A stretch of DNA of 64,000 nt from Halobacterium wangiae (GTDB taxonomy: Archaea > Halobacteriota > Halobacteria > Halobacteriales > Halobacteriaceae), in NCBI RefSeq assembly GCF_021249345.1, contig NZ_CP089588.1, positions 1,860,001-1,924,000 on the forward strand, given 5' to 3'. The notes below the pieces were generated by a model that was not told where the DNA came from, did not search any database, and was given only the letters and a program-made list of their open reading frames with translations. Positions 3,739 to 56,139 of this stretch are shown here, piece by piece (position 1 is the stretch's first letter; each line of letters starts with the position of its first letter). The position numbers were made by a program, and so were the translations under genes.

Positions 3739-4785
3739 GTGATTGAGATTATGACACCAACTACTGACCCGGGCAAGCGCATTCCGAAGTCACTGAACAC
3801 CGAAGCAAACCTGATCGGGTCCTACACACTCACGGACGCCGCAGTAGCACTCACACCCGGCGTTATTGTCGTGCTCGGCTTCCAATGGCTAATCCCACCA
3901 GGCCTAGGATTCTCACTCGCAGGCTACTCGTTCACGCTGAGTATGCTCACACTCCCCCTCGCGGCTGTCGGAGTTCTCCTCGGTGGTGTGTTCGTGCTTT
4001 TGACGCCGTCGTATACGTCGAGTCTCGGGTGGCTACAGGCCGCACTCGGATTCCACCGCGGAGAGCGCGAACTCGACTTCGAGATGGCATGCGGGGAGAC
4101 GCGCTTCGAACGCGCGCACCTGCACCGGAACGCCATAGAACGCCAGGACGGCGCCCTCATCGGGCTCGTCGAGGTGAGTGCGCCATTGCTCGCGTTGGCA
4201 ACCCCGAGCGAGTGGGCGGCCCACACGAGGGCGTTCGCGGACTTCTGCAACACCACCCTCGAATATCCCATCCAAATCTACTCCACGACACGCGCATTCG
4301 ATGTAGATTCGTATCTTTCGACGTACGAGGATAGACTCAGTGACCCTGACGTACTCGCGAATCCACGCCTGAGTTCGCTCATTGAGGGGTATATCGAGTG
4401 GTATGAGACCGAGCTCGCTTCCCGTGAGATGACGATACGCGAGCACTACGTCATCGTATCCGTTCACCCGGACTCACTCACGTTCGAATCGAATTCCATC
4501 CTACAGAAAGCGATCACACTCCCCCTCATTGGGGTGTTCGCTCGCGTACTCACCGGGGCGCGCGAACGAAACCGGAGTAAGGAGACCGCATTCGACGTGC
4601 TCGACGAACGCTGCCGAACCATTGCGTCCGGATTACGAGGAATCGAGGGTACGCACACTAAGCGAGTCGACGCCGAAACCGCAGTCGGCCTCCTCAGCGA
4701 ATTCTGGGGAACCCACAACCACCCACGCACAGAGGATGGCGTTCTCCGAGAAACGCCACTAGTAACGCCACGAGGTCGTCAATGA
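3739..4785 (+). CDS. VirB3/PrgI-like membrane protein with extra cytoplasmic domain
   Basis: 348 aa from GTG 3739; ATG 3751 is an alternative start. Two closely spaced membrane helices (residues ~30-95) follow a short cytoplasmic leader with the motif LIGSYTLTDAAVAL, like VirB3/PrgI proteins that sit beside VirB4. The remaining ~250 residues are soluble (DGALIGLVEVSAPLLALATP, then EWYETELASREMTIREHY) and resemble the N-terminal domain usually found in VirB4/TraC-type ATPases. The gene overlaps the ATPase gene by 4 nt (ATGA). The split or fusion arrangement is unusual. Confidence 0.55.
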   Translation: MIEIMTPTTDPGKRIPKSLNTEANLIGSYTLTDAAVALTPGVIVVLGFQWLIPPGLGFSLAGYSFTLSMLTLPLAAVGVLLGGVFVLLTPSYTSSLGWLQAALGFHRGERELDFEMACGETRFERAHLHRNAIERQDGALIGLVEVSAPLLALATPSEWAAHTRAFADFCNTTLEYPIQIYSTTRAFDVDSYLSTYEDRLSDPDVLANPRLSSLIEGYIEWYETELASREMTIREHYVIVSVHPDSLTFESNSILQKAITLPLIGVFARVLTGARERNRSKETAFDVLDERCRTIASGLRGIEGTHTKRVDAETAVGLLSEFWGTHNHPRTEDGVLRETPLVTPRGRQ

Positions 4786-7015: not shown

Positions 7016-10000
7016 TCAGTCCTCCCTCTCGGTCCACTTTTGGACGGCGTATACGAGAGCGGTGAGGGTGCCGATGAGGGTGGAGGTGATTCCGAATCCG
7101 GGCGTTGTTGTGCTGGTCGTCTGTGTGGCCGTCGACCCAGTGGATTTGGTCGCGGTGGGTGATGTCGTCTCTGTGTCGGCGTTGCTACCAGTGGGTGTTG
7201 TGGTCGTTTTCGGGGATATGAGGTCGGCAGCGCGGGGAGTTGTCTTTGTGTTGCCGATGAATCTGAGGATGTTCCGGGCTTGGACTTCGAAGTTGAACCG
7301 GAGTTCGGTGAGAAGCTTCTCACTGGTGTGAACGACCACCGCGCCGTCTCCGCGTCGACTGACCGCGGAGACCGGGTAGGCGTTCGGGTCTTCGTCGGCG
7401 TCGCGCACCGTGTTCGGTTTGGACTGGATCTGGACGGTGACGTCGTCCCCGAGATTCGTGAGCGTGCAAGCGTGGGACATCCAGCCCTCGTCGAGAATCT
7501 GGTAGGTGATGGGGGTCCGGTAGGCGGCGGGTTCGGTTCGGATCGAGTTGTCGTCCCACATATCGAGCGTGTAGATCTTCCGTGGATCGACGGTGATTTC
7601 GAAGCGCTCCGTGACACGATTGATGGACTCGTCCACCGATTCACTCACCACGACACCGAGACGACCCCCGGCTTCGACGAACCGCTCCAAGGTCGCCAGC
7701 TCACCCTCGGTAAACGTATAGTACTGGTCTTTATACGGGAATGCCGGACCGATGAGAACGCCGTCCAGCCCGTCGAGTTGCTCGGGTGTGAAGGCGGTGA
7801 TTTCGGCGAAGGACAGCTCGTATTTGGCGCCGTACTTCTCCCGGAACTCACGTAACCCATCGTAGGTTCCCACCGGGTCCTGACCGTTACCACTATAAAT
7901 TCCGATATGTAGTGTCTTTTGGGCCGGGGTGATCTGAGATTCGGCGCGCTCGGCGTTCTCGATTGCGCGATCGAACTGGCCAGCGCCATGGGCGAGGTTT
8001 GCTTCGTATATCGCCGCCTCCCCGATGGCGAGGGGGATAGATCGGCCATTCGCCGAGACGTCCTCCAGGGCGTCCGAGGCACGATCAATCGCCGTCTGCG
8101 CCTCCGACTCCGTGGCGTCCGTCGTCCGTGTCGCGGTTTTGAACCGGACGACCCCCCAGACATCGACCTCCGGGACGGTCACCGAGACGTACTCGCCATC
8201 GCGGTGGCTTGTTAACGGTACAGGGTCGGCGGTCGGTGCTATCAGGTCGACAGCATGGACTGCACCCTCCGTGTCGTGGAGTGAGAGATCGATATCGGTG
8301 ACCGGGTCGATGGCGTCGGTGTCCGAGTCGTAGTCGTAGTTCACCAGATGGACGTTCAGCCACCCATCGTCGGTCTCGATTACTTCACAGCTCAATGTCG
8401 GCGGCCCATCAACCGTGACGAGTGGTGATTCCAGGGAGGTTTCGAGGGCGTCCCCTGCTGTCGCGGTCTCTCCGTCCGCTGCCCGGCTGCCCGCCTCGGT
8501 CAAGTCTCGTACGCCGTCCAAACCTGCGAGGTCGTCGTCCCGGGGCCGGTAGTACTCGTCGTGTGTCCCCAGATTGCCCTCAATGAGCGCGGTTCCACCC
8601 TGTTCCACGAACGTCCGAACCGCGTCGATCTGCGCGTCTGTCAACGCATCGGCAAATGGGAGGACCAGCGTCTGATATGAGGAAAGCCGTTCGAGGGTGT
8701 CTGTGTCGTCCCAGAGCTCAGGGTGACCGAAGATTACCATGTCAGTCGGAATCTGGCGTTCACGTGCAGCGCGAACCCACCCATCTACACGTTTTGCCTC
8801 CTGGTCGCCGCGGCACCCGATGAATGGCCGCAGTTGACCTAATAAGGTTGGAATACTATACACGACCGCGACGTCACTGTTGGGGGCCCCACGGAGATCT
8901 TGTCTGTGAAGCCAGAGGAAATCCGCGAGAGGGCGGAGGGCTGTCGGGACCGATCCGGAGTCAGGATTCATCCACATGAGCGCAACACTGTCCGGGGGGA
9001 GGCCATTCCAGCCGTCGAGGTCGAGTTGACGCGTGGAGCCATTGGCATATACTTCGGCGAAGTTGAGCGTCTGCAGGGTCGGATACTGTTTCCCGGGGTC
9101 AAGTGTCCCGGTCCATCCGCCGGTGCCGTAGAATCCGTGTTCAACGGCGGGTTTCTCGACTGTCTGCGCCATCGCTGCGACCAGCTTGTGCGTGGCCGTT
9201 CGAATGGAGGCGAGATACGCGTTGCCGGTGGCTGGAGTACGCCCGGGAATCGTAATTGGATTCTCTACTTCAATTAGGTCGTAGACCTGACTCAGGAGTA
9301 TGGCTGCGTTCGATTTTGTGGAGATGACGCGAGTTTGTTGATTGCCGAGAGTGGTTAGTGGCGATTCGACCTGGTCGGCGGATTTGTGACCCCGCGCGCG
9401 GTAGGATTTGTAGTACTCCAAGATACGGCGGTTCTCCATGAGTCGGAACTCGTATAGAACCGGGTCGTGAACGACGTCTTCCTCTGTTTTCGTGCCGGTT
9501 TCAACGTCCCGTTGGATGGCTTGGGTATAGGTCTGGATGTCGAATTGATCGATGTTATCGACGTCTAGACGTGCCAGTCTAGCGGGTGGTAATTTTCGTA
9601 GATATTCCCGGAATGCGCGTTGTGCCCAGACTGAAAAGTCGCCGGTCATGAGGTTGCTGGCATCAGATGCTAGATCCATTTCGGTGGCGTTCGCCCCGTA
9701 TAGGGGTGCGTGTTCGTGATTTGTGAGGTGGTATGTGGTTGGGCCCGGGGCATAGAGTGAGACGGAGTACGCGGCGGTATTCCCGATTTGCATGTACCGT
9801 CTGGTATTGTTGGTGAAATCTCGAGCTGTAGATACATGGAGGGGGTGTTCGGCGGGTGAGCCATCTGGAGCCGGCCATTGTTTGGTTGCGGGGAGATCGT
9901 AGAGGTAGCCAGACATTTGATTGTCTGCTGGCCGCTGGTCGAGTGGCACGTCGTAGGGCATCCAACCGAATCCAAGGGAGGCAGGAAGTGCGAGGGACGC

Positions 10001-27552: not shown

Positions 27553-27689
27553 GGTAGATTATACGGCTCCAACTGTGTTAGATGTTCTCGGCCGGGGGAC
27601 ATTGGCGGGACTCTGAGCAAGACTGGGGAAATTTCGAGAAATGATTCGATTTCTGCTGTCGTCTGCTTCTGCTCGCATGGAGGAGATCT

Positions 27690-28242
27690 ACGGGGGTACG
27701 AGGTAGTTCACGCGCCCGCCTCTGCTCAGACTTCGAACTTTCGAGTACCCGCCGAACGCGGGCGAGGGCTCGCGATCCTGCCCGGCTGTTCGTGAGCTCA
27801 TGGCCTGAAATTCGATTCCCTCTCCCACAGTCCTTGAGGCAAATGGCTGCTCATCTCGTACAAGATCTGATGGAGCAGGGACGTCCGGCTCGACGATGGT
27901 TGGATCCTTGCCCTTTCGATCGACCGCTGATCGGAGTGCTGCGAGGTCGACCACGGCAGGTACACCGGTGAGGTCCTGCAGGACGACTCGGGAGGGCGTG
28001 AATGGGAGTTCGACGTTTGGTACCTCGGGTTCCCACGAGGCAGCATTGCGAACGTCTTCGGCGGTTACCGTCTCTCCGTCGACGTTGCGGAGAACGGACT
28101 CGAGGAGCACGCGGATACTGACGGGGACCCGATCGAGTTCACAGAGACCCTCGTCTCCGAGGACTGTGAGGTCGGCCATCTTCTATGGGGTGCCGTCGAA
28201 CTCGAATTCGCGAATTGCGTCGAATGGAGACGGTTCGTTCAT
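27690..28242 (-). pseudogene. acnA: Aconitate hydratase N-terminal relic
   Basis: From ATG 28242 the minus strand reads MNEPSPFDAIREFEFDGTP, then TAG where a Tyr/Phe codon is expected, then KMADLTVLGDEGLCELDRVP and VSIRVLLESVLRN, ending with WEPEVPNVELPFTPSRVVLQ and GVPAVVDLAALRSAV. These are the N-terminal blocks of AcnA-type aconitase. After SDLV the usual DHSVQVD and all cluster-binding cysteines are gone, and the rest is deleted or scrambled. The gene is dead and would not bind a 4Fe-4S cluster. Confidence 0.75.
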
Positions 28243-30461: not shown

Positions 30462-30971
30462 ATGGTCCAAGCTATTCGTCCAGAGAAACGGACGTTCGCC
30501 AGAAGGTATGAAGAGAGTGCAGTAATCGACGCGAGTGCTGCAGACATCTTTGCCGTTGTTGACGATCACGCCGCACTTTCCGCGCACATGAGCCAGTCGT
30601 CTTGGATGATGGGTGGTGGGCGCATGGAAACGACAGTTGACGAGGGGCACGGCCAGAAAGTCGGCTCCCACATCCGTATGAGCGGCAACGCGTTCGGAAT
30701 TCCACTGTCTTTAGACGAAGTCATCACCGAGTACGAGCCGCCGTACAGAAAGGTGTGGGAGACCGTTGGAGACGTGAAGCTCGTCGTCATCGGTCATTAC
30801 CGATGGAGCAACATCATAGAGTCGGAAGATGATCGTTCGCTGCTTCGCGTATCACTCGAGTACGATTTACCCTCCAGGAACGTTTGGCTGGGCCGTTTGT
30901 TAGGCAGAATGTACGCAAAATGGTGTGTACACCAGATGATCGAAAGCGTGCGCGATGCGTTCGAGAGATAA
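30462..30971 (+). CDS. SRPBCC-fold protein
   Basis: 169 aa. Starts with a typical SRPBCC strand and helix (YEESAVIDASAADIFAVVDD), contains a Met-rich loop (SQSSWMMGGGRMETTV), beta strands through LDEVITEYEPPYRKVWETVG, and a C-terminal helix ending in SVRDAFER. It overlaps the start of the next frame (30955). Distinct in sequence from the SRPBCC protein at 28369. Ligand unknown. Confidence 0.75.
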   Translation: MVQAIRPEKRTFARRYEESAVIDASAADIFAVVDDHAALSAHMSQSSWMMGGGRMETTVDEGHGQKVGSHIRMSGNAFGIPLSLDEVITEYEPPYRKVWETVGDVKLVVIGHYRWSNIIESEDDRSLLRVSLEYDLPSRNVWLGRLLGRMYAKWCVHQMIESVRDAFER

Positions 30972-31283
30972 TGCGGAGGAACTGTTCAACACTCTCGGCA
31001 TCGTCCTGAACCTCACCGGTGGGCGGACGGCGTTCGAACAGATGTACTTCGAACTTAACTACACGTTCTACCTCAATATCATCGCCTTCGCGCTCACGGG
31101 ATTCCTCTACTACGTCTACCGCCGAGGACTCGGCGCGCCTGGCCAGTACCGCGACCCCGTCTGTGGGATGCGAACCGACGACAGCGGGCCGACCCTCACC
31201 CACGCTGGCGAGACGTACTACTTCTGCTCGAAGCGATGCAAGCAATCGTTCGAGAAGCACCCCTCCGAATTCGCACATCAGCA
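30955..31283 (+). pseudogene. C-terminal relic of a membrane permease with YHS metal domain
   Basis: The frame encodes one helix (YLNIIAFALTGFLYYVYRR), then a YHS domain: DPVCGMRTDDSGPTLTHAGE, TYYFCSKRCKQSFEKHPSEF. The domain's Cys residues are intact. The multi-helix permease expected before it (as in metal-efflux permeases that end in YHS) is missing, and the frame runs beyond the domain into unrelated sequence at a hairpin (31284-31306). It is probably the truncated tail of a copper or other metal exporter, cut on both sides. The YHS part might still be translated from the start at 30955. Confidence 0.6.
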
Positions 31284-31306
31284 CCCCCAAGTCTCAGAAG
31301 TGGGGG
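31284..31306. repeat. CCCCCA/TGGGGG hairpin at the end of the YHS relic
   Basis: A 6-bp stem with an 11-nt loop. It truncates the permease-YHS frame and looks like the right-end hairpin of an IS200/IS605-type element. No transposase is nearby, so it is probably a scar. Confidence 0.45.
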
Positions 31307-31459
31307 TTCCCAGAGCCATGAGCATCACTGAACGCCACGGCGTGATATTAACGGTCGTGGCCAGGCAGTCCCGAGTCTTGTCTCGACCAATCAAGACTGG
31401 TGCACGGATGTCTCGCCAACTCTCAGGCATGAATGGAGATACTGGCAGATCGAGGTGGG

Positions 31460-31843
31460 ATGGATGAATCGACGGAGAGGCGATACAGGAGTCGGTGGCT
31501 TGCTCGTTGCTATCCTCATTGCGGACGCACTGCTCGGCGACTCGCGATACTCTCTGTCCCGCTGCTGGTCGCGGCGACTGGAACGGCTGCTGCCCACGGT
31601 GACGGGAGCTACGGCGGCGGCATGATGGGCGAGAGCAGCTGGGGCCTTTTCGGCGGAGCGATGGGGCTCTGGGGGCTCCTCTGGATGGGTCTCCTCATCG
31701 CCGTCCCGCTATACCTCGTCTATGCGCTACTCAACCGAGGGTCCGGCGGGAACAATGAGAAGCCGCTGTCGGTTCTCCGCGAGCGCTACGCCCGCGGTGA
31801 GCTCTCGGACGATGAATTCGATCGACGGCGAGAACAACTCTAA
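31460..31843 (+). CDS. SHOCT-tailed, Met/Gly-rich membrane protein
   Basis: About 127 aa from ATG 31460; the start is uncertain (31433, or another frame's ATG at 31464). A signal-like helix (LAILSVPLLVAATGTAAAHG) precedes an exterior GSYGGGMMGESSW motif, one or two helices (MGLLIAVPLYLVYALL) and a C-terminal SHOCT motif (LRERYARGELSDDEFDRRRE). SHOCT tails mediate oligomerisation. The GGGMMG motif is Met-rich, as in Cu(I)-binding segments. Similar proteins lie at 32373 and 33218. Confidence 0.7.
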   Translation: MDESTERRYRSRWLARCYPHCGRTARRLAILSVPLLVAATGTAAAHGDGSYGGGMMGESSWGLFGGAMGLWGLLWMGLLIAVPLYLVYALLNRGSGGNNEKPLSVLRERYARGELSDDEFDRRREQL

Positions 31844-31856
31844 CGCACCGGATGAC

Positions 31857-31875
31857 TGGAACAGTTGCTGTTCCA
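31857..31875. terminator. Palindrome after the first SHOCT gene
   Basis: TGGAACAG, TTG, CTGTTCCA: a perfect 8-bp stem 13 nt after the stop codon. It may be a terminator hairpin, or an operator for the gene that starts at 31951. Confidence 0.4.
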
Positions 31876-31925
31876 GCCGATACATCACACTCCCAACGCC
31901 CGCCGTTGCGGCACCCAACCGTTAA

Positions 31926-31939
31926 CCCCGTGGACGGGG
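31926..31939. promoter_or_regulatory. CCCCGT-gg-ACGGGG palindrome before the DUF302 gene
   Basis: Perfect 6-bp arms followed by TATAATAT and the ATG at 31951. The TATA-like string is too close to the ATG to serve as its promoter, so the palindrome is better read as an operator or hairpin in the leader. Confidence 0.35.
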
Positions 31940-31950
31940 TATAATATTAC

Positions 31951-32376
31951 ATGGAATACACAATACAGACTTCAGTCACTGGCGATTTCGACGACGTCGT
32001 CGACACGACGATCGCAGCGCTCGAAGACGAAGAATTCGGCGTCCTCTGTGACATCGACATCCAGGCGACGCTCAAGGAGAAACTCGGCGAAGAATTCCGC
32101 CAGTACCGCATTCTCGGTGCATGCAATCCACCTCTGGCATACGAAGGACTGACCGAAGAAATCGAACTCGGCGCACTCCTCCCGTGTAACGTCATCGTCT
32201 ACGAAACCGATAACGGCGAGGTCATGGTGAGTGCAGTCGATCCGCAACAGCTGGTTGGCATCGCGGACAACGCCGCGCTCGATTCCATCGGCACTGAAGT
32301 CCACGACAGATTCGAGCGAGTCCTCGACGCTGTCTCCCAGGAACTTGAAACTACTTCGGGGGCTGAGAACCGATGA
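31951..32376 (+). CDS. DUF302 domain protein
   Basis: 141 aa. DUF302 hallmarks: an N-terminal ferredoxin-like strand and helix (FDDVVDTTIAALEDEEFGVL), IDIQATLKEKLGEEF, YRILGACNPPLAYEGL with the conserved CNP, and a strand pair LLPCNVIVYETDNGEVMVSA. DUF302 proteins often accompany thiol- or metal-related genes. ATGA overlap with the SHOCT gene downstream shows they are co-transcribed. Confidence 0.85.
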   Translation: MEYTIQTSVTGDFDDVVDTTIAALEDEEFGVLCDIDIQATLKEKLGEEFRQYRILGACNPPLAYEGLTEEIELGALLPCNVIVYETDNGEVMVSAVDPQQLVGIADNAALDSIGTEVHDRFERVLDAVSQELETTSGAENR

Positions 32377-32726
32377 GTTCGTCGAACCAACTCGACACCA
32401 CGACTATCATCCTCCTGATTCTGGGGGCGATCATCGTCCTCCCGTTGCTCACGATGGGGATGGGTTTCGGCGGAATGATGGGGTACGGCGGTATGATGGG
32501 TGAGTCCGGGCCGACGAGCGGCTGGTGGCCATTCGTCGGAATGCTTGTTCCCCTCGGATTCCTCCTCGTTTTGCTCGGTGGTGGATACCTCGTCTTCCGC
32601 CGCGTAGCGGAATCAGAGTCATCCCGGGATCCTGCAATAGAGGAGTTGCGCACGGCGTACGCTCGTGGTGACATTACCGACGAAGAGTTCGAGGCTCGTC
32701 GAGATAAACTCGAACGCTCGGAGTAG
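32373..32726 (+). CDS. SHOCT-tailed, Met/Gly-rich membrane protein
   Basis: 117 aa. Two helices (TIILLILGAIIVLPLLT; PFVGMLVPLGFLLVLLGGGY) enclose an exterior loop MGFGGMMGYGGMMGESGP with paired methionines. The C-terminal SHOCT motif is LRTAYARGDITDEEFEARRD. Same plan as the products at 31460 and 33218. Starts within the DUF302 stop (4-nt overlap). Confidence 0.85.
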   Translation: MSSSNQLDTTTIILLILGAIIVLPLLTMGMGFGGMMGYGGMMGESGPTSGWWPFVGMLVPLGFLLVLLGGGYLVFRRVAESESSRDPAIEELRTAYARGDITDEEFEARRDKLERSE

Positions 32727-32886
32727 AGCAATCACAGCCCGGATATCTACGATTTCAGAATAACCGACGCGAACATCTACCCCGGGGATCGGTTCTATCG
32801 GTCCCCTTCGAATCTGGATTCTAGAACTCCACCGGCTTTTGGATGTTAATAGGAATGTGCAAAAGGCACAAGACCATAGTGGGGGT

Positions 32887-33231
32887 GTGACCGAAGTAAT
32901 CCTCTTCACCCAGGAAACGTGCGGGGCGTGCACAACACAACGAGAGAAAAACGAGGGCATCGAGGACGCGAATCCGGACGTCGAATTCCGGGAGGTCGAC
33001 ATTCAGAACGACCTGGAGACGGCAGAAGAGTACGGAGTCCGAAAGACACCCACGACACTCGTCTACGCGAACGGGGAACGGACTGACGAGTTCATCGGAA
33101 TCGTCGAGCGCGACGAGACGGAGGCGGCTATCGAACGGGCAGCCCAGCAATCGACCGGACTCGCAGAACGCCTCGCGAGCATCGTACGAGGATACCGGAA
33201 ACCGACTAATTCAGACAATGAACTACAGTAG
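32887..33231 (+). CDS. Thioredoxin/glutaredoxin-like protein (CGAC)
   Basis: About 114 aa from GTG 32887; the frame is open to TTG 32839. First strand EVILFTQETCGACTTQRE carries the redox pair CGAC, followed by FREVDIQNDLETAEEYGVRK, the cis-Pro loop TPTTLVYANGE and a final helix. A cytoplasmic thiol-disulfide oxidoreductase. It overlaps the start of the cupredoxin gene (33218), implying coupled expression. Confidence 0.8.
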   Translation: MTEVILFTQETCGACTTQREKNEGIEDANPDVEFREVDIQNDLETAEEYGVRKTPTTLVYANGERTDEFIGIVERDETEAAIERAAQQSTGLAERLASIVRGYRKPTNSDNELQ

Positions 33232-33967
33232 ACGCCAGTTTCTAGGAGCGCTCGGGACTAGCACGGCCGTGATGGCGGGACTCACCCAGTCAGTTAGTGC
33301 ACAGGAGACGCCCGTCGTCAGGATGGGGAACAACTACTTCGACCCGGTCGGGCTACACGTCGAACCCGGCACGACCGTTCGCTTCGAGATCGCTGCCGGG
33401 GCGCACTCGGCGACCGCCTACGAAAACCGGATTCCAGCTAACGCCACCGCATTCGATAGTGGGGTCATCTCCTCAGGAGGGTTCGAGCATACATTCGAGG
33501 AACCGGGCACATACGACTACTACTGCATCCCGCACAAGTCGGTCGGGATGGTCGGTCGCATCGTCGTCGGCAGCCCCGGCGGGCCAGCCGAAGAGCGCCC
33601 GATTCCGGACGGCAACGTGCCAGAGAGCGATACGATCGTCGAACAGGGCGCAATAGCGTACGGATCTAACACCGGAGGTGCCGGGAACTCTGGTGGGGGG
33701 CGGAGAGGGCCTGGGATGGGGTCTGGGCCAGGAATGATGAACGACCGGAACGGCGGGTTGCCGTTCGTCGGTGGGATACTCGGAATGCTCGGGCTGGCCG
33801 GCGGACTACTCTACTGGGTACTAGGCCGCGGTGACGTTCCTTCTCGGAGTGACAATTCCGCGCTGGAAATCCTCGAACGCCGATACGATCGAGGCGAGAT
33901 CGACGAAGCGGAGTTCCAGCGACGCCGTGAGCAGTTGGAGACAATTGGTGAGAACGAGTCTCAGTGA
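33218..33967 (+). CDS. Tat-exported cupredoxin (halocyanin-like) with SHOCT tail
   Basis: 249 aa. Tat signal MNYSRRQFLGALGTSTAVMA, then a type-1 copper domain: first His in AAGAHSATAYE (~residue 65) and YYCIPHKSVGMVG (Cys, His, Met; ~105-115). A Gly/Met-rich linker (GPGMGSGPGMMNDRNG), one helix (LGMLGLAGGLLYWVLG) and a C-terminal SHOCT motif (LERRYDRGEIDEAEFQRRRE) follow. A cupredoxin-helix-SHOCT fusion is unusual and links the copper protein to the two SHOCT genes just upstream. Confidence 0.85.
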   Translation: MNYSRRQFLGALGTSTAVMAGLTQSVSAQETPVVRMGNNYFDPVGLHVEPGTTVRFEIAAGAHSATAYENRIPANATAFDSGVISSGGFEHTFEEPGTYDYYCIPHKSVGMVGRIVVGSPGGPAEERPIPDGNVPESDTIVEQGAIAYGSNTGGAGNSGGGRRGPGMGSGPGMMNDRNGGLPFVGGILGMLGLAGGLLYWVLGRGDVPSRSDNSALEILERRYDRGEIDEAEFQRRREQLETIGENESQ

Positions 33968-34994: not shown

Positions 34995-36386
34995 TCAGAT
35001 GATCGAGTACTCGGCGATGGTGTCCCAGGTGCCGTACCGATCACGTATCGACCCGCGGGGGATGCTGACGATGATGAGGAGGACTCCGACAGCGACGCTG
35101 TTCCAGGTTGCTACCGTCGAAGCGCCGGTGAGTATCCACGGTGCGACGACGATCCATACCCCCAGTGGGACGTTGACGAAGCGGACGACGCGCGCGGGTT
35201 CCCCCATGGCAATCACGGAGAACGTCACGACGAGTGCACCGACGAGCTGACTGCTGTCCGCGGCCCCACCGGTGGTCCCGAAAACCGCAGGGGACGCCAT
35301 CAACCAGAGCCCGAGCCCCGTGGCGACGATGAGATACCTCGGAATCGACATCCCCCAGAACATCGACCAGAACGAGGCGGCGTCGGACCGCGTGTCCCCT
35401 TCTACGCCCGCTTCGGTCTCGGGGAACGTCCCGCCCATCCAGAACGCGTGCCACAGCGACTCGCCCTCCTGGGTCCGCCGGTAGAGGAACTGCCCCATCG
35501 CCAGGACCTCGTCGACGGTCAGCGCGATCATGAACAGCATGGCCAGCGCCGAGAGTAGACAGAGCGTACACCACGAGCCGACGGCCAGCGGCTGGAGGAT
35601 GATGAGCATGATACTGACGAACCCGAGGGGGATGACGACGATGCCGAAGAACGTGACCATCCACGGCATCGTCCGCCACCGGCGCTTGTCGCCCATGAAT
35701 CCCATCAGAACTTCAACGGCGTACGCAACGGCGCCGAGCCCGGCGTCCGAGATCGGGAACATCTCCGAGACATCGGAGGTGAGCACGTTCACCGTTCCCT
35801 GCCCGAAGAACGGCTCGAAGACGAATTCGGTGTAGCCGAGCTGGAATGCGGCCATATGCGTCGAGAAGAAGAACCCGATGAGCCCGGCGACGATGATCGG
35901 CGCCCGCTGGGCCGCGCTCGAAGGATTGTACGTCCACCCGCGCGGGACGCCTGGACCCGACATCTCCATGCGCATCACGACGAGTACCGAGAACGAGATG
36001 ACGAATACACCGACGAGCGTGTCGTTCAGGAAGGCGGCACTCGTCGGTGCCCAGAACACGAGGGGCGCGAGCAGCAACCAGAGTCCGACGAATCCGTTCG
36101 CGTAGTTCGCCCACCCGTTCCGCCGAACGAGCACGGTCGCGGCGAGGACAACCAGGAGTGACCCGCTGACGATGTCGCTGGCTGTCATCGCGACGCTCTC
36201 GTACCCGAAGGTGAACGGGCTCGCGATGAGCCAGAGGCCGAGGATAACGATGGGATACTGCGGCCATAGCTCCATCGTCGGGTGCTCGAGCATCATACTC
36301 CCCGGCTCTTGGGACTCGTGCTCGTGGCTGGCCATCCCGTCGGACGTGGCGCTGTGGCGCTCACTCATGGCGTATTCAGCCGACAA
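34995..36386 (-). CDS. Membrane protein: SPW repeats flanking a VKOR-like domain
   Basis: 463 aa (ATG 36386; ATG 36368 also possible). An acidic His/Met-rich N-terminus is followed by SPW-type helices (IVILGLWLIASPFTFGY), a middle block with helices around SWCTLCLLSAL (~residue 270) typical of vitamin K epoxide reductase (VKOR) family proteins, and a second SPW pair (GLGLWLMASPAVFG). I see only the CxxC pair and not the second cysteine pair of full VKOR enzymes, so its partner may be separate. Likely a disulfide-forming or quinone-linked membrane protein. Confidence 0.75.
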   Translation of the reverse strand: MSAEYAMSERHSATSDGMASHEHESQEPGSMMLEHPTMELWPQYPIVILGLWLIASPFTFGYESVAMTASDIVSGSLLVVLAATVLVRRNGWANYANGFVGLWLLLAPLVFWAPTSAAFLNDTLVGVFVISFSVLVVMRMEMSGPGVPRGWTYNPSSAAQRAPIIVAGLIGFFFSTHMAAFQLGYTEFVFEPFFGQGTVNVLTSDVSEMFPISDAGLGAVAYAVEVLMGFMGDKRRWRTMPWMVTFFGIVVIPLGFVSIMLIILQPLAVGSWCTLCLLSALAMLFMIALTVDEVLAMGQFLYRRTQEGESLWHAFWMGGTFPETEAGVEGDTRSDAASFWSMFWGMSIPRYLIVATGLGLWLMASPAVFGTTGGAADSSQLVGALVVTFSVIAMGEPARVVRFVNVPLGVWIVVAPWILTGASTVATWNSVAVGVLLIIVSIPRGSIRDRYGTWDTIAEYSII

Positions 36387-37035: not shown

Positions 37036-37128
37036 ACAAGACTGTAGACCCGTTACAGGGGCGTTTACAGTCGGGATAGTGCCGAAGACGAACTGGTAGC
37101 CGTGGCAACGATTTGAACCGAAGAGGGC

Positions 37129-37358
37129 CTGCTTCGCAGCATCCTCATCGTACTGGGTGTCACCGTGTTCATTCCAGTACTGATGGTGGTGTTTGCGATG
37201 CCGATGATTGGGGGAATGAGCTAATGGTGGGGCGGCGGTATGGTCGGAAATCCCATCTCATCACTGTGGGGTGTAGGGATGATGCTCGTTTGACTCGTCG
37301 TCTTCGTCTCGATGACGCAACGCTTGGAGAACGTTTGGAGTGGGTATCGTAAACCCCT
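37129..37358 (+). pseudogene. Relic of a Met-rich small membrane protein (SHOCT-family relative)
   Basis: One frame reads LLRSILIVLGVTVFIPVLMV, FAMPMIGGMS, TAA (37222), WWGGGMVGNPISSLWGVGMM, TGA (37291), LVVFVSMTQ. The two stops are in the same frame, and both sides continue a clear two-helix, Met/Gly-rich membrane protein like those at 31460 and 32373. Suppressing the stops gives WWGGGM and LV(W)LVVF, as expected for TGG-to-stop changes. It looks like a dead copy. Confidence 0.55.
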
Positions 37359-37440: not shown

Positions 37441-37459
37441 TCGCCCGCATTGGTCAACC

Positions 37460-38059
37460 ATGCGCGACCTCGACGAAACTGACCTCGAGATCCTCCAGCT
37501 ACTGGTCTCAGACGCTCGTCGGCCGTACAGTGACATCGCGGACGTAGTCGGTCTCTCGGCACCGGCCGTGTCGGACCGAGTAGCGAGATTACAGGAGATG
37601 GGAGTCATCAACCGTTTCACGCTCGATGTCGATCGCTCACAACTCTGGGGCGGAATTCCAGTGTTGATCACACTCGACGTCTCCTCAACGGGTTCCTCTG
37701 TTGGGTCGATCAAAGAGCAACTCTTGGACGACGGCGCAGTCGAGCACGTGTTCACAACGGCCGAAGCCGACCTCGTCATCTACGCCAGAGTCCAGGACAA
37801 CGACATCGCAGGCTGGCTTACAGATACCCTCGACGAAGGCGCGTTCGACGACTTCGAGGTGAAGCTCCTGGCAGGGGTGGACTGGTCGCCTAACTTGGGC
37901 GGAACGGAGTTTGCCCTCACCTGTGCACAGTGCGGGAATACGGTCGACAGCGAGGGAACATCGACCCGTATCGACGGAGAGTTGTACCAGTTCTGTTGTC
38001 CATCGTGCGAGAGTCGATTCACAGAGAAGTACAATCGACTTCAGCAGGAAGCTGAGTGA
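37460..38059 (+). CDS. Lrp/AsnC-type regulator with TRASH metal-binding domain
   Basis: 199 aa from ATG 37460; the in-frame extension to 37340 lies over the pseudogene and is unlikely. N-terminal Lrp HTH (LDETDLEILQLLVSDARRPY...VGLSAPAVSDRVARLQEMG), a middle RAM-like domain, and a C-terminal TRASH domain CAQCGNTVDS...FCCPSC with the metal-binding cysteines. A Halobacterium Lrp-TRASH protein (VNG1179C) is reported to control a copper ATPase gene, and here the CopA gene follows directly, so copper-responsive activation is likely. Confidence 0.88.
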   Translation: MRDLDETDLEILQLLVSDARRPYSDIADVVGLSAPAVSDRVARLQEMGVINRFTLDVDRSQLWGGIPVLITLDVSSTGSSVGSIKEQLLDDGAVEHVFTTAEADLVIYARVQDNDIAGWLTDTLDEGAFDDFEVKLLAGVDWSPNLGGTEFALTCAQCGNTVDSEGTSTRIDGELYQFCCPSCESRFTEKYNRLQQEAE

Positions 38060-38119
38060 GTGGCGTCCGGCACACCACACTTTGTATTCGAAACTCTGGC
38101 CTCACGATAGCTGAATGTC

Positions 38120-38163
38120 TGAAAGCGAAACTACACTGTATAGGGAGCCCGTATGTATAGATA
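38120..38163 (+). promoter_or_regulatory. copA promoter region
   Basis: A GCGAAACTACACTGTATAGG block (38127-38146) places a BRE-like purine stretch and TATA-like GTATAG about 22-30 nt before ATG 38164. The short gap after the regulator gene suggests a separate metal-controlled promoter for copA. Confidence 0.35.
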
Positions 38164-40767
38164 ATGAGTCAGCGAACCAGCCACATCAATATCCAGGGGA
38201 TGAGTTGTGCGAACTGCTCACAATCCATCTCCGAGGCCGTCACCTCACTCGACGGAGTCTCGGAGGCGAACATCAACTTCGCCACTGACGAGGGGTCGGT
38301 TACGTACGACCCCGAGGAGGTCTCACTCGGGGAGCTATTCGACGCGATAGAAGACGCCGGGTATTCGCCAGTGACCGACTCGGTCACGATCGCGGTCACC
38401 GACATGTCGTGTGCGAACTGTTCGGAGACGATCCAGGACGCACTCGAAAAGACGCCGGGCGTCGTCGCCGCTGACGCCAACTTCGCGACCGACGAGGCAC
38501 AGATCACGTACAATCCGGCCGAGGCGGACCTGGGAGGCTTCTACGAAGCCATCGAGAACGCCGGCTACTCGCCCGTTCGAGAGGACGCCAAAGCCGACGA
38601 CGGCTCGGGAGGCGATGCCCGAGAGGCCGCCCGACAAGAAGAAATCCGTCGGCAACTCCAGCTGACGCTGTTCGGCGCAGCACTGTCCCTCCCCCTGCTG
38701 GTGTTCATGGCCGACCACCTCCTGGGACTCGGACTCGTGGGAGACGAGCTCTTCGGCCTTCCGGCCGGATGGGTCGCGTTCGCGCTGGCGACGCCTGTCC
38801 AGGTGGTGCTCGGTAAGCCGTTCTACGAGAACTCCTACAAGGCACTCGTCACGAACGGCCGCGCCAACATGGACGTGCTGATCGCGCTGGGCTCGACGAC
38901 CGCCTACGTCTACTCCGTGGCAGTCCTGCTCGGAGTGATCTCTGGCGGGCTGTACTTCGACACGGCAGCGTTCATCCTCGTATTCATCACGCTCGGCAAC
39001 TACCTCGAGGCCCGCTCGAAGGGCCAGGCCGGCGAAGCGCTCCGGAAACTCCTCGAGATGGAGGCCGACACCGCCACCGTCATCGACGAGGATGGAACCG
39101 AGGCGGAGATCCCCCTCGACGAGGTCGACGTCGGCGACCGGATGAAGGTCAAGCCCGGCGAGCAGATTCCCACCGACGGCGTCGTCGTCGACGGCCAGTC
39201 GGCAGTCGACGAGTCGATGGTGACCGGCGAGTCCGTCCCCGTCGAGAAATCCAAGGGCGACGAAGTGGTCGGCTCCACCATCAACGAGAACGGCGTCCTC
39301 GTCGTCGAAGCGACGAAGGTCGGCGAAGACACGGCGCTCCAGCAGATCGTGCAAACGGTGAAGGAAGCGCAGTCCCGCCAGCCCGACATCCAGAACCTCG
39401 CGGACCGCATCTCCGCGTACTTCGTCCCCGCAGTCATCGCGAACGCCGTCCTCTGGGGCGTCGTCTGGTCCCTGTTCCCCGAGGCCCTCGCAGGCTTCGT
39501 CGCCGCGCTCCCGCTGTGGGGCCTCGTTGCAGGTGGTCCCGTCGCCGCTGGAGGCGTCTCGGTCTTCGAGTTCGCAACAATCGTATTCGCATCGTCGGTG
39601 CTCATCGCCTGCCCCTGCGCGCTGGGCCTGGCAACGCCCGCCGCCACGATGGTCGGGACGACCCTCGGTGCACAGAACGGCGTCCTGTTCAAAGGCGGCG
39701 ACGTCCTCGAACGGGCGAAGGACGTCGATACCGTCGTCTTCGACAAGACCGGGACGCTCACGAAAGGCGAGATGGAACTGACCGACATCGTCGTCTTCGA
39801 CAGCGACGGCCAGCCTGTCGCAGACGGTGGGAATCCCGCTACTGACGGCGGGCAATTCGCTGCTGCTGAGGGGCTTAGCGAGGACGACGTACTTCGGTTC
39901 GCGGCGATCGCCGAGAGTGCGAGCGAACACCCGCTCGCCCGGGCAATCGTCGATGGAGCCAGAGACCGCGGTATCGATGTGGCCGACCCCGATGACTTCG
40001 AGAACGTCCCCGGCCACGGCATCAAAGCAACCGTGAACAACAGTGAGGTCCTGGTCGGCAACCGGAAGCTCCTCCGGGACCACGGTATCGACCCCGCGCC
40101 TGCTCAAGAGACGATGGAGCGCCTCGAGAACGAGGGCAAGACGGCGATGTTGGTCGCCTACGAGGGTGAACTCGTGGGCGTCGTCGCGGACGCCGACACA
40201 GTCAAGGAGAGTGCAAAAGACGCCGTGAGCCAGCTCGAAGCGCGCGGCGTCGACGTGATGATGATCACCGGCGACAACGAGCGCACCGCTCGCGCTGTCG
40301 CCAAGCAGGTCGGAATCGACCCCGAGAACGTCCGCGCGGAGGTCCTCCCCGAGGACAAGTCGGACGCCGTGGAATCCATCCAGGACGGCGGTCGAAAAGC
40401 GATGATGGTCGGCGACGGCGTCAACGACGCGCCCGCACTCGCGGTCGCGTACGTCGGCACGGCCATCGGGTCGGGGACGGACGTCGCCATCGAGGCTGCG
40501 GACGTGACGCTGATGCGCGACGATCCGGTCGACGTCGTGAAGGCGATCCGCATTTCGGACGCGACGCTGGCGAAGATCAAGCAGAACCTCGTGTGGGCAC
40601 TGGGCTACAACACGGCGATGATTCCGCTGGCCTCGCTCGGCCTGCTCCAGCCCGTGCTTGCCGCTGTCGCGATGGCGTTCTCGAGCGTATCCGTACTGTC
40701 GAATAGCCTGCTGTTCCGCCGGTACACCCCCGATCACGACTACAAGCTGCTCGGCCGTTTCCGCTGA
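38164..40767 (+). CDS. copA: Copper-exporting P1B-type ATPase
   Basis: 867 aa. Two N-terminal HMA domains with MSCANC (residues ~13-18 and ~81-86), then eight helices with the CPC metal motif in [14 protein letters not shown] (~482), TGE(S) in [12 protein letters not shown] (~358), [10 protein letters not shown] phosphorylation site (~527), HP motif SEHPLARAI and [10 protein letters not shown] hinge. The TGE, DKTGT and GDGVNDAP motifs are intact, so it is an active Cu(I) exporter. It follows the Lrp-TRASH regulator and precedes a CopZ-like chaperone gene. Confidence 0.95.
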
Positions 40768-40829
40768 ACGTCTGGCCTTTCGAGGGTGTCCACTCTTTTC
40801 CGCTGAACGACACATACGTATCTCGTTGA

Positions 40830-40998
40830 GACGGTGAGCGCTGAGGACGGAGGTTCACGCGACCGAGAGTCTGTGGAAGGACCAGGAGGGAGAAATTCCC
40901 GCGCTACAGAAGTACTGTCTACACCGTGTGAACTACCCCGCCCTACTCGCCGCCTTCGGCGGCTCCTTGAGGAAGGGAGCTTAGCGCCCTCTCTTTAA
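40830..40998 (+). pseudogene. Possible IS1341-type end (TnpB C-terminal tail and hairpin)
   Basis: An open tail rich in Arg, Glu, Pro and Ser (ESVEGPGGRNSRATEVLSTP) ends in TAA at 40996-40998, over a GCCGCC-ttc-GGCGGC hairpin (40949-40963) inside a CCGCCCTACTC...CTTGAGGAAGGG context. Tails and hairpins of this type occur at the ends of haloarchaeal IS1341-type elements. No catalytic motif remains. Weak call. The rest of 40999-41231 has no recognisable gene. Confidence 0.3.
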
Positions 40999-41231
40999 GC
41001 TAATTGCCCTTTATTGTCTAGTCATCTGCATATGAGGGGGGCGAATCGATTGACGTCTACGGACTCTGCGTCTCCCCAGTTTGGTGTCGAGGACGGCCGG
41101 CTTCCTAGCCTGCGCTGGAGTACACTGAACGGGGAGTAATGGGTCGCCGCGAAGGAAGATACTGACGTAGTGGTCCCCTCCGTCAGGCGGTAGTGGACCA
41201 CACCTGGCTGCCTGCGCTGGATGAGGGCGCG

Positions 41232-41429
41232 TTACGCCGACGCGTCGTAGCCCGCGTCGTCGACGGCAGCGACGAGGGCGTCGGTGTCCGACGTACCCTC
41301 TACGGTCACGGAGTCGGATTCGCGGTCTGCGTCCGCACTCGTCACGCCATCTACGTCACTGAGCGCCTCTTCGACGGTCTGCTCACAGTGTCCACACGTC
41401 ATTCCCTCGACAGTGATTGTTTCCGACAT
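41232..41429 (-). CDS. copZ: CopZ-like copper chaperone (HMA domain)
   Basis: 65 aa. A single heavy-metal-associated domain with MTCGHCEQTVEEAL, followed by DGVTSADADRESDSVTV and VAAVDDAGYDA. Cytoplasmic Cu(I) carrier that would deliver copper to the CopA HMA domains. Convergent with copA, about 460 nt away. Confidence 0.9.
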   Translation of the reverse strand: MSETITVEGMTCGHCEQTVEEALSDVDGVTSADADRESDSVTVEGTSDTDALVAAVDDAGYDASA

Positions 41430-53591: not shown

Positions 53592-55001
53592 TCACTCGAC
53601 GTATTCGACGACGCGCGCCATCCCGGCGTCGAGGTGGTAGAGGTTGTGACAGTGGAATAGCCAGCGACCGGGGTTGTCCGCGTGGAAGTCCAGTGTCACC
53701 TGTCCCCGGTGACCGGGGACGATGACGGTGTCTTTGATCGCGTTGCCGACCTGGAAGAAGTGGCCGTGGAGGTGCATCGGGTGGACGACTGGGCTCAGAT
53801 TGGTCATCCGAATCCGGACGTGTTCGTCGGGCCGAATCTGGAGCGGGTCGGCGTCCGGGTAGGCCTGTCCGTCTATCGTCCACGTGTAGGACTGGCCCCT
53901 GCTGCGGGAGAGCGTCAGGTCGAACGTTCGATCCGGCTCTCCACTCACCCCGTCGAGCGAGGAGACCGCCCGCAAGTCTTCGTACTGCAACTGGTTACTC
54001 GCGGACGACGGTGGCTGTGGACTTCGTCCGTCCGCTGACTCGTACTCGACGACGGCTCTGGCTGGTGGTTCGTCTCCATCGAGTGCGTTCGCTTGCACGA
54101 ACCAGCTCCCCGGATTCGTCGCTTCGACGACCACGTCGTAGCGTTCGCCGGCTCCGAAGGCGAAAGAGTCAGTGTCGACGGGTTCGACGGGTCGTCCGTC
54201 GGCGTGGGTCACGGTCATCTCGTGGCCGGCGATCTGTACTCCGAAGACTGTCGCGCTGGCGGCGTTCACGAACCGGAAGCGAATCCGCTCGCCCTCTGTG
54301 ACGTCGAACCTCTCTGGATCCTCGGGGAGTCGACCGTTGACGAGGAGGCCTTCGTATGGCGGTCGAGTGTCCCCCATCATCCCGCCACCCCTGCCGCCGC
54401 CGGAAGGGAGTTCGGGCTCACGGGGGAGGTAGTCGTCGAGGACGACGACGTACTCGCGGTCGTACTCGACGTGCGGGTCGCGTTCTTCGACAATCAATGG
54501 GCCGAACAATCCACAGTCGAGCTGGAGTCCGACGTGACTGTGATAGAAGTACGTCCCCGGGGGTTCGGCACGGAACGTGTACGTGAACGTATCGCCGGAC
54601 GCGACCGGGTCCTGGGTCACGTTCGGGACGCCGTCGACCGGGTTCGGGACGGGAATCCCGTGCCAGTGAATCGTCGTCTCCTCCTGGAGGTCGTTGGTCA
54701 CTTCGACGCTGAGCACGTCGTCCTCCTGTACGCGTAGCTCCGGTCCCGGGAACTGGCCCTCGTACAGCCAGTTGGTCGTCGACGCATCGGGGCCTGGTTG
54801 AATAGTCCCGGACGCCGCGGTGAGGCTGAGGGACGTATCTGGCTCGGCCGTGACTGTCGAGCGGGGCGTCACCTCACGACCCCCACCATCATCGTCGGTG
54901 TCCGGTTGCTGACCGGCACAGCCCGCGAGCGCGCCGAGAGTGGTCGCTCCCGTCAGCTGGAGGAGTCTGCGACGGGAGAACCAGTGCTGTTTACGCGGCA
55001 C
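53592..55001 (-). CDS. Tat-exported multicopper oxidase
   Basis: 469 aa. Tat signal with lipobox (FSRRRLLQLTGATTLGALAG C). Copper sites: TIHWHGIPVP and YFYHSHVGLQ (T2/T3), HPMHLHGHFFQVG and WLFHCHNLYHLDAGM (T1 Cys with T2/T3 His). A Met-containing loop (RGGGMMGDT) lies near the T1 region. A laccase-like or copper/metal-oxidising enzyme at the cell surface; fits the copper theme of the window. The start of this gene overlaps the end of the next by 11 nt. Confidence 0.93.
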   Translation of the reverse strand: MPRKQHWFSRRRLLQLTGATTLGALAGCAGQQPDTDDDGGGREVTPRSTVTAEPDTSLSLTAASGTIQPGPDASTTNWLYEGQFPGPELRVQEDDVLSVEVTNDLQEETTIHWHGIPVPNPVDGVPNVTQDPVASGDTFTYTFRAEPPGTYFYHSHVGLQLDCGLFGPLIVEERDPHVEYDREYVVVLDDYLPREPELPSGGGRGGGMMGDTRPPYEGLLVNGRLPEDPERFDVTEGERIRFRFVNAASATVFGVQIAGHEMTVTHADGRPVEPVDTDSFAFGAGERYDVVVEATNPGSWFVQANALDGDEPPARAVVEYESADGRSPQPPSSASNQLQYEDLRAVSSLDGVSGEPDRTFDLTLSRSRGQSYTWTIDGQAYPDADPLQIRPDEHVRIRMTNLSPVVHPMHLHGHFFQVGNAIKDTVIVPGHRGQVTLDFHADNPGRWLFHCHNLYHLDAGMARVVEYVE

Positions 55002-56139
55002 AGTTGTTCGGCCCCAGTTCGAGTTCCGTCGCCTCGGCTTCGTCCTCGACGGTCTCTCTGCCGGTGTTGATCGCGATCACTGTCTCGTAGTTCGGTGGCT
55101 TCTCCGGGGCCTCCTCGGTCAATCGCTCGACGAACGCGTCGCGGTCGAGTTCGAGGAAGTCGAGTTCCTCGCGGAGGTCCCCGAGTCGGGCCTCGAGGGG
55201 TTCGCCGGGCGAGCCGTTCTCGTAGCGTCCGTCGCTCGTGACGGTGAGGTGGCCCGGCAGAATCGTCGTGTCGTCAGAGAGCTCGAGGATCGTCTCGTGG
55301 AGGGAGTCGTACAGCAGGTCTGCTCCACGCGAGGCGTCGTCCTCGCCGAACTGGAGTTCCGTCCGTCCGACGGAGTCGACGAACAGCGTATCGCCCGTCA
55401 ACAGGAGTTCGCCGTCGACGAGGTAGTTCATCATCTCGGAGGTGTGACCTGGCGTGTGGAGCGCCTCGATCTCGACGTCGCCGACTTCGAGTACGTCTCC
55501 ATCACCTAGCGGTTCGTACTTGTACTCGACACCGCGTTCGCTGGCTGCGTCGCCGAGGTGGTAGGGCACGCCGACCTCCTCGGCGAGTTCTGAGCTGCCC
55601 GAGATGTGGTCGGCGTGGACGTGCGTATCCAGGACGCGCGTGATGGAGAACCCAGCGTCCTGGGCTGCAACCTTGAACTGGTCGGTCTGTCTGGTCGCAT
55701 CGACCACGACGGCCTCTTCCGTCGCTTTCGAGCCGACGATGTAGCCGAGACAGCCCTTCGCTCGGCGCTGGACCTGTCGAACGACCAGGTCGTCGCTGGA
55801 CGTCTCGATAGGGGCGACCTCGTAGTGTTTGCTCCACTCCTCCATACCGCCGGTGACGACCGAGACGTCGTCGTAGCCGTGCTCGTCGAGGTCGAACGCG
55901 AACGGCGTCGACGTCAGACCCTTCCCGCAGATAGCGACGACCGGCCGGGCGTCGGCCAGTGCGTTCACCTCGTCGAGTTGGTCCTCGCTCAACCCCTCGT
56001 CGGGGTCGTATGGAACGTTCGCTGCGTCGCGCACGTGCCAGGCCTCGAAGCTGTCTTCGGGACGCGTGTCGATGAGCGTGAACTGTTCGTCGGCGTCGAT
56101 CTTCTCCGCGAGTTGTGCTGCAGTGATGGTCTTGACCAT
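54991..56139 (-). CDS. Rhodanese-metallo-beta-lactamase fusion (persulfide dioxygenase-like)
   Basis: 382 aa. Residues 1-110 are a rhodanese domain (LIDTRPEDSFEAWHVRDAAN, with the active Cys in VAICGKGLTSTPF). Residues ~125-370 are a metallo-beta-lactamase fold with THVHADHISGS, HTPGHTSEMMNYL and TGDTLFVDSVGRTEL. This order occurs in persulfide dioxygenase/sulfurtransferase fusions that detoxify sulfane sulfur. Transcribed with the downstream multicopper oxidase. Confidence 0.9.
   Translation of the reverse strand: MVKTITAAQLAEKIDADEQFTLIDTRPEDSFEAWHVRDAANVPYDPDEGLSEDQLDEVNALADARPVVAICGKGLTSTPFAFDLDEHGYDDVSVVTGGMEEWSKHYEVAPIETSSDDLVVRQVQRRAKGCLGYIVGSKATEEAVVVDATRQTDQFKVAAQDAGFSITRVLDTHVHADHISGSSELAEEVGVPYHLGDAASERGVEYKYEPLGDGDVLEVGDVEIEALHTPGHTSEMMNYLVDGELLLTGDTLFVDSVGRTELQFGEDDASRGADLLYDSLHETILELSDDTTILPGHLTVTSDGRYENGSPGEPLEARLGDLREELDFLELDRDAFVERLTEEAPEKPPNYETVIAINTGRETVEDEAEATELELGPNNCAA

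Follow-up and report, generated by a model that had tools for sequence, protein, structure and literature searches.

A linked haloarchaeal gene set of SHOCT-tailed membrane proteins, DUF302, thioredoxin and cupredoxin, probably the core of a mobile copper-resistance module

The stretch of Halobacterium wangiae DNA analysed here (64,000 nucleotides of contig NZ_CP089588.1, positions 1,860,001 to 1,924,000; hereafter the window) carries at 31460-33967 five genes encoding two SHOCT-tailed membrane proteins, a DUF302 protein, a CGAC thioredoxin, and a cupredoxin that itself ends in a SHOCT tail. This gene set is a real linked module, for which gene content, conserved order, tight linkage, association with copper efflux, plasmid mobility, and purifying selection are established. 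The cluster in the window is probably the core that was kept from a haloarchaeal module for resistance to copper, and probably also to silver, that is horizontally mobile.

Composition and conservation of the gene set

All components named in the initial annotation of this DNA are present.

31460..31843, + strand: SHOCT1 (PF09851, 37.6 bits; alignment to relatives)
31951..32376, + strand: DUF302 protein (PF03625, 92.3 bits, cut-off 23)
32373..32726, + strand: SHOCT2 (PF09851, 34.8 bits)
32887..33231, + strand: thioredoxin-fold protein with CGAC motif, TRX (PF00085, 37.9 bits; alignment)
33218..33967, + strand: cupredoxin-SHOCT protein, CUP (Copper-bind, 42.7 bits; SHOCT, 37.1 bits)

The three PF09851 matches (SHOCT1, SHOCT2, and CUP) all exceed the gathering score of 27 bits, and each is C-terminal. 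A genome-wide search found only five SHOCT domains on the whole 3.11 Mb single-contig chromosome. Since three of these five lie within 2.2 kb here, their clustering is not due to chance. The overlaps between the DUF302 and SHOCT2 genes, and between the TRX and CUP genes, indicate an operon-like arrangement.

SHOCT1 consists of a hydrophobic signal/anchor segment, an exterior GGGMMGESSW motif, another helix, and the SHOCT tail, the last few C-terminal residues being lost relative to its relatives. SHOCT2, which is 72-87% identical to orthologs adjoining DUF302, has a hydrophobic helix, the exterior motif GMGFGGMMGYGGMMG, a second hydrophobic helix, and the tail. CUP is composed of a twin-arginine translocation (Tat) signal with the RR pair (MNYSRRQFL), a type-1 copper domain, a Met-rich linker, a single membrane helix, and the SHOCT tail. 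Its copper ligands (H63, C103, H106, and M111) are invariant across 21 orthologs. The Met motif of CUP is degenerate in the window copy (GGRRGPGMGSGPGMMN), where most relatives have GGMMGPGMG. The DUF302 protein displays the conserved cysteine motifs GACNP and LLPCN, and no signal peptide was seen in it; its solved relatives (1j3m and 1q9u) are both labelled only as uncharacterised. TRX, whose gene start agrees with relatives by alignment, is probably cytoplasmic and scores below the equivalog cut-off of TIGR01068 (38 versus 97).

To survey the distribution of the module, we used 292 haloarchaeal genomes. Full-length cupredoxin-SHOCT orthologs, present in 43 of them, are sharply separated from generic cupredoxins. 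DUF302 lies no more than 3.5 kb from the ortholog in 33 of these 43 genomes (0.1 expected), and SHOCT2 is near it in 32, a co-occurrence whose absence had been named beforehand as a possible refutation. Among all 141 DUF302 genes, 61 have a SHOCT2-like gene within 700 bp (0.05 expected), and these are spread over 59 genomes. At the genome level, co-occurrence of the DUF302-SHOCT2 pair with the cupredoxin has an odds ratio of 28 (p 7e-19, kinship ignored), a p value that overstates independence because the genomes are related and copies are spread by plasmids.

Comparison of 29 dereplicated named loci with cupredoxin-SHOCT revealed the recurrent partners. DUF302 is found in 22, SHOCT2 in 22, SHOCT1 in 20, a Met/His-rich exported protein in 19, a YraQ-YHS permease in 17, the thioredoxin in 16, a membrane helix-turn-helix (HTH) protein in 15, a P-type ATPase in 10, a multicopper oxidase in 10, and a rhodanese-metallo-beta-lactamase (rhodanese-MBL) protein in 9. 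The gene order is permease-YHS, membrane HTH, (rhodanese-MBL, multicopper oxidase), Met/His-rich exported protein, SHOCT1, DUF302, SHOCT2, thioredoxin, and cupredoxin. Beyond the cupredoxin comes an ATP-binding cassette transporter on the other strand, often along with a further SHOCT gene, SHOCT3. Many copies of the module are plasmid-borne; a near-identical 20 kb is shared by several genera, and the entire island is present on Haloarcula marismortui pNG600, where the module spans RR_RS01535-RR_RS01590. In the window, DUF302, SHOCT2, TRX, and CUP are intact, with proportions of nonsynonymous and synonymous differences (pN/pS) of ~0.07-0.10 over 0.3-0.5; for the DUF302 gene compared with that of Halogranum amylolyticum (locus L049) the values are 0.07/0.31.

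Copper context and proposed function

The following genes of the window are related to copper handling, or accompany such genes in relatives.

37457..38059, + strand: TRASH-domain Lrp-family regulator adjoining copA (PF24273 TRASH_HVO_1752_C, 87.6 bits, cut-off 27)
38164..40767, + strand: CopA-type copper P1B ATPase (TIGR01511, 557 bits, cut-off 397)
41232..41429, - strand: HMA copper-chaperone-like protein (PF00403, 68.7 bits)
53592..55001, - strand: multicopper oxidase (84% identical to L046 6798-8231)
54991..56139, - strand: rhodanese-MBL protein (PF00581 and PF00753; 88% identical to L046 5660-6808)

The copper context suggested in the initial annotation is borne out both here and in relatives. 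The TRASH regulator and CopA are 3.5 and 4.2 kb, respectively, from the end of the module, and a genome search identified this CopA as the sole close one in the genome. The multicopper oxidase is ~20 kb from the module in the window, and its ortholog lies directly upstream of the module in several relatives, whose islands also contain the rhodanese-MBL protein as its partner. Relatives' islands further hold P-type metal ATPases, including P1B enzymes, HMA proteins, TRASH-Lrp regulators, YHS domains, and DUF411. In a second set of 20 loci, with DUF302-SHOCT2 and no cupredoxin nearby, P-type ATPases are present in 11 and a multicopper oxidase in 11; in one of them (L118), the oxidase, SHOCT2, and DUF302 genes are divergent from lrp-copA. 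A review lists five CopA homologs on pNG600 (PMC4187130). SHOCT has been tied to haloarchaeal soft-metal stress in one paper, where silver induced copA, lrp, copZ, a plastocyanin-like gene, and the gene for one SHOCT membrane protein in Haloferax alexandrinus (PMC10694973).

Resistance to copper (or silver) is the best reading of these islands, with the metal itself inferred. Several points weigh against it. The permease has a Cu/Zn efflux family as its best model, and the oxidase has TIGR01480 copper_res_A as its best NCBIfam model (E 5e-82), but both assignments fall under the curated cut-offs (276 bits versus 479 for the oxidase). No promoter element common to the module and to copA, lrp, and the HMA gene is evident. 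In addition, bacterial DUF302 and MBL-rhodanese proteins are found in sulfur-related contexts, and the function of the module is assigned from gene context and family knowledge.

In the mechanism that we propose, Cu(I) would be exported by CopA and held at the outer face of the membrane by the Met clusters that SHOCT1, SHOCT2, and the CUP linker expose there. The cupredoxin and the multicopper oxidase might then relay Cu(I) or oxidise it to Cu(II), and on the cytoplasmic side DUF302 and TRX may act on thiols or metal. As for the SHOCT tail, it most likely serves as a cytoplasmic tag for localisation or for binding of partners; it is not a proven self-assembly device.

Intact relatives, the trimmed window copy and alternative readings

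Three elements found in intact relatives are lacking in the window. The first is the membrane HTH gene (e.g. L071 6565-7146), which occurs in 15 of the 29 cupredoxin-SHOCT loci and in 9 of the 20 cupredoxin-less loci, and of which no homolog was found in the genome to which the window belongs. It encodes a protein with two predicted helices flanking a near-invariant exterior loop (MGSMMGxSMGxxHG) and a cytoplasmic winged helix (PF24034/MarR-like); its AlphaFold model has a predicted local distance difference test score (pLDDT) of 58. The second is a leader gene just upstream of SHOCT1 (e.g. L049 7885-8205), encoding the Met/His-rich exported protein, which has no Pfam match, has the pattern WMExxMxEHMGPGxVEWMESHMGVTVDEM...GQGHC, and is possibly a copper sponge. 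The third is the perfect palindrome ACGTTCTCGAACGT, which precedes the leader gene start by 84-85 bp in 15 of the 27 loci examined; most of the remaining loci have a near copy. It adjoins a TATA-like box (e.g. L038 7859 and L049 7801), and has no exact copy anywhere in the genome of the window. Perfect 6-2-6 palindromes have a background rate of 0.13 per 300 bp; the loci are related and hence not independent.

The membrane winged-helix protein with its exterior Met loop is a candidate membrane sensor of Cu(I), with ACGTTCTCGAACGT as its possible site of action. On a bolder reading, the module would be an archaeal envelope system not described before, with SHOCT-tailed Met-rich membrane proteins and a membrane-anchored cupredoxin that capture and oxidise Cu(I) outside the cell, controlled in intact copies by a new type of sensor. 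This sensor would be the two-helix protein, its loop MGSMMGxSMGxxHG binding Cu(I) and its winged helix contacting the palindrome. We regard this as tentative and rather unlikely.

The window copy of the module has been trimmed, as is apparent from the following features.

30955..31467, + strand: permease remnant, ArsP_1/YraQ-type with YHS (YHS PF04945, 44.3 bits)
31519-31522, no strand: deletion junction (blastn against L049, Halogranum amylolyticum)
37063..37314, + strand: SHOCT3 pseudogene (tblastn of SHOCT3 proteins, E ~4e-27)
27688..28179, - strand: aconitase fragment (PF00330, 29.8 bits; 86% match in L049)

Only the last membrane helix and the YHS domain are left of the permease, ~350 N-terminal residues being gone and the C terminus altered; the remnant is 75% identical over 107 aa to the C terminus of a 464-aa permease (L038:5655-7049). 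By blastn, window 30975-31519 corresponds to L049 2227-2772 (84%) and window 31522-32000 to L049 8286-8764 (92%). Left of the junction, the sequence runs from the permease C terminus into the beginning of the membrane HTH gene; right of it lies SHOCT1 from codon ~9-10. Relative to L049, ~5.5 kb is missing, and the lost DNA includes the leader gene, the promoter palindrome, and all but the 5' part of the HTH gene. The deletion has thus joined SHOCT1 to the 5' end of the HTH regulator gene. The ATG of the latter (31464) is out of frame with SHOCT1, whose frame is open from ATG 31460. A native SHOCT1 start at 31460 is ruled out by the junction, because the initial codons are the 5' end of another gene. 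SHOCT1 could start only at this ATG or upstream, which gives a new basic N terminus and leaves the hydrophobic segment intact. Copper control of the window copy may be altered, because the leader gene, the promoter element, and the membrane HTH regulator have been deleted.

The dead fourth SHOCT member noted in the initial annotation is a real SHOCT3 pseudogene (about 37117-37314) with three in-frame stops, 59-64% identical to a SHOCT3 family, but only its membrane part is left and the SHOCT tail is absent. An intact SHOCT3-like membrane protein, a paralog of the pseudogene, is encoded elsewhere in the genome (L005, 2481941-2482018). On pNG600 and on a plasmid of Halobacterium DL1, acnA lies near the island. 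The aconitase fragment is probably a relic of such an island-accompanying plasmid acnA, which perhaps acts as a reserve for an Fe-S enzyme that copper damages easily. Genes for TrbL/VirB6-like proteins and an AAA ATPase, of a conjugation-type system, are present at 2506-6863, and GC content at third codon positions is lower over ~0-34 kb than past 41 kb, which together suggest an integrated element. A gene adjoining the module on the opposite strand (34995-36386) encodes a vitamin K epoxide reductase-like domain fused to SPW repeats.

These losses could mean that the window copy is a decaying, functionless relic, irrespective of the role of the module elsewhere. SHOCT3, the permease, the regulator, the leader gene, and the palindrome of the promoter are indeed lost or broken, and SHOCT1 is scarred; the low pN/pS of the four intact genes argues against this reading, which is improbable for the copy as a whole. 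Decay is possible for SHOCT1 and not favoured for the other four genes.

A comparably small chance is given to the assembly proposed in the initial annotation, whereby self-association of the SHOCT tails in the cytoplasm draws the cupredoxin, SHOCT1, and SHOCT2 together in a single membrane complex whose members share a Cu(I) surface on the outside. Three linked, co-inherited proteins do share a design of exterior Met, helix, and SHOCT tail, and in the AlphaFold model of CUP (mean pLDDT 43) the pair of SHOCT helices is the sole confidently modelled and usable part. On the other hand, oligomerisation of a SHOCT domain has been tested and was not found (PMC3581485), and the tails have just 12-15 of 26 residues in common, in a generic SHOCT pattern. 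The CUP tail is also retained in some loci (e.g. L051 and L064) without SHOCT1 or SHOCT2 within 10 kb, which weakens the idea that it exists for these neighbours. A different small SHOCT membrane protein is encoded divergently beside the cupredoxin-SHOCT gene in L059 (~9298-9789) and L065 (~9570). Because of the negative oligomerisation test and the retention of the tail without SHOCT1/2, a tail-built complex is unsupported and is not the default reading.

A role of the module in detoxification of reactive sulfur (persulfide or sulfide) rather than copper, with sulfur handled by rhodanese-MBL, DUF302, and thioredoxin and electrons accepted by the cupredoxin, is possible because DUF302 and rhodanese-MBL have bacterial sulfur contexts. 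DUF302 is found in sox clusters of sulfur oxidisers (PMC5037610), an Arthrobacter plasmid carries in a row a metal-sensitive-type regulator, MBL, rhodanese, TauE, a major facilitator superfamily transporter, and DUF302, and models matching rhodanese-MBL include a sulfur transferase/dioxygenase. However, most relatives lack rhodanese-MBL, and where it occurs its neighbour is mostly the copper-type oxidase; P1B ATPases, TRASH regulators, the YHS permease, and DUF411 dominate. The neighbourhood fits sulfur less well, and we consider this role quite unlikely. Finally, an ordinary role of the cupredoxin in respiratory electron transfer, as a halocyanin-type carrier with incidental neighbours, is very unlikely: although its type-1 ligands are intact and pseudoazurins are the closest relatives with a solved structure (E ~1e-13), it scores below the halocyanin and pseudoazurin models (TIGR03102, 50.9 versus 93.8 bits; TIGR02375, 47.2 versus 109.9), and its orthologs form a sharply separate group, often on plasmids, that is linked to copper-resistance genes.

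Comparison with known copper systems

Little is known about how copper is handled beyond the cytoplasmic membrane in archaea, which have no outer membrane or bacterial-type periplasm. For this question, the module supplies a defined gene set with conserved order, intact plasmid-borne copies in cultivable Haloarcula, and a candidate sensor and operator. It also suggests testable functions for two domains that have none assigned, SHOCT and DUF302. No paper with both DUF302 and SHOCT was found in the open-access literature searched, nor was the gene set found described in the haloarchaeal copper literature; within this literature, the statement of the initial annotation that no system of such composition is described holds.

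One of the closest known systems is the archaeal cop cluster, consisting of a TRASH-domain Lrp/CopT-type regulator, CopA, and an HMA chaperone (Halobacterium yvgX/VNG0702H and Sulfolobus cop). Its three components are present 3.5-7.5 kb downstream of the module (37457-41429) and recur in relatives' islands, whereas the SHOCT/DUF302/thioredoxin/cupredoxin module is not part of the descriptions of the cop cluster that were found. CUP shares with halocyanin and pseudoazurin the cupredoxin domain, the His-Cys-His-Met ligands, and Tat export, but differs by its C-terminal Met-rich linker, membrane helix, and SHOCT tail, in addition to scoring under the halocyanin cut-off. SHOCT1 and SHOCT2 resemble SHOCT-domain membrane proteins (formerly DUF2078) in being short, with membrane helices and a C-terminal SHOCT tail. 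What differs here is that three SHOCT proteins, one being a cupredoxin fusion, are encoded together with copper genes in a set whose linkage is conserved.

Bacterial plasmid-borne Pco/Cop/Sil islands are similar in that they are mobile and combine a multicopper oxidase, a Met/His-rich exported protein, a P-type ATPase, and small copper proteins, although the haloarchaeal oxidase has the copper-resistance type only as a best model under its cut-off and lies next to the module in several relatives but not in the window. No outer-membrane or resistance-nodulation-division parts, PcoB, or CopC/CopD were recognised among the recurrent neighbours of the haloarchaeal module, with no dedicated search for PcoB/CopC/CopD. 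In contrast to the bacterial islands, the module has its Met clusters on SHOCT-tailed membrane proteins, and a YraQ-YHS permease, DUF302, and the cupredoxin-SHOCT fusion instead. The module, although not found described as a system, appears to belong with the known mobile copper-resistance islands.

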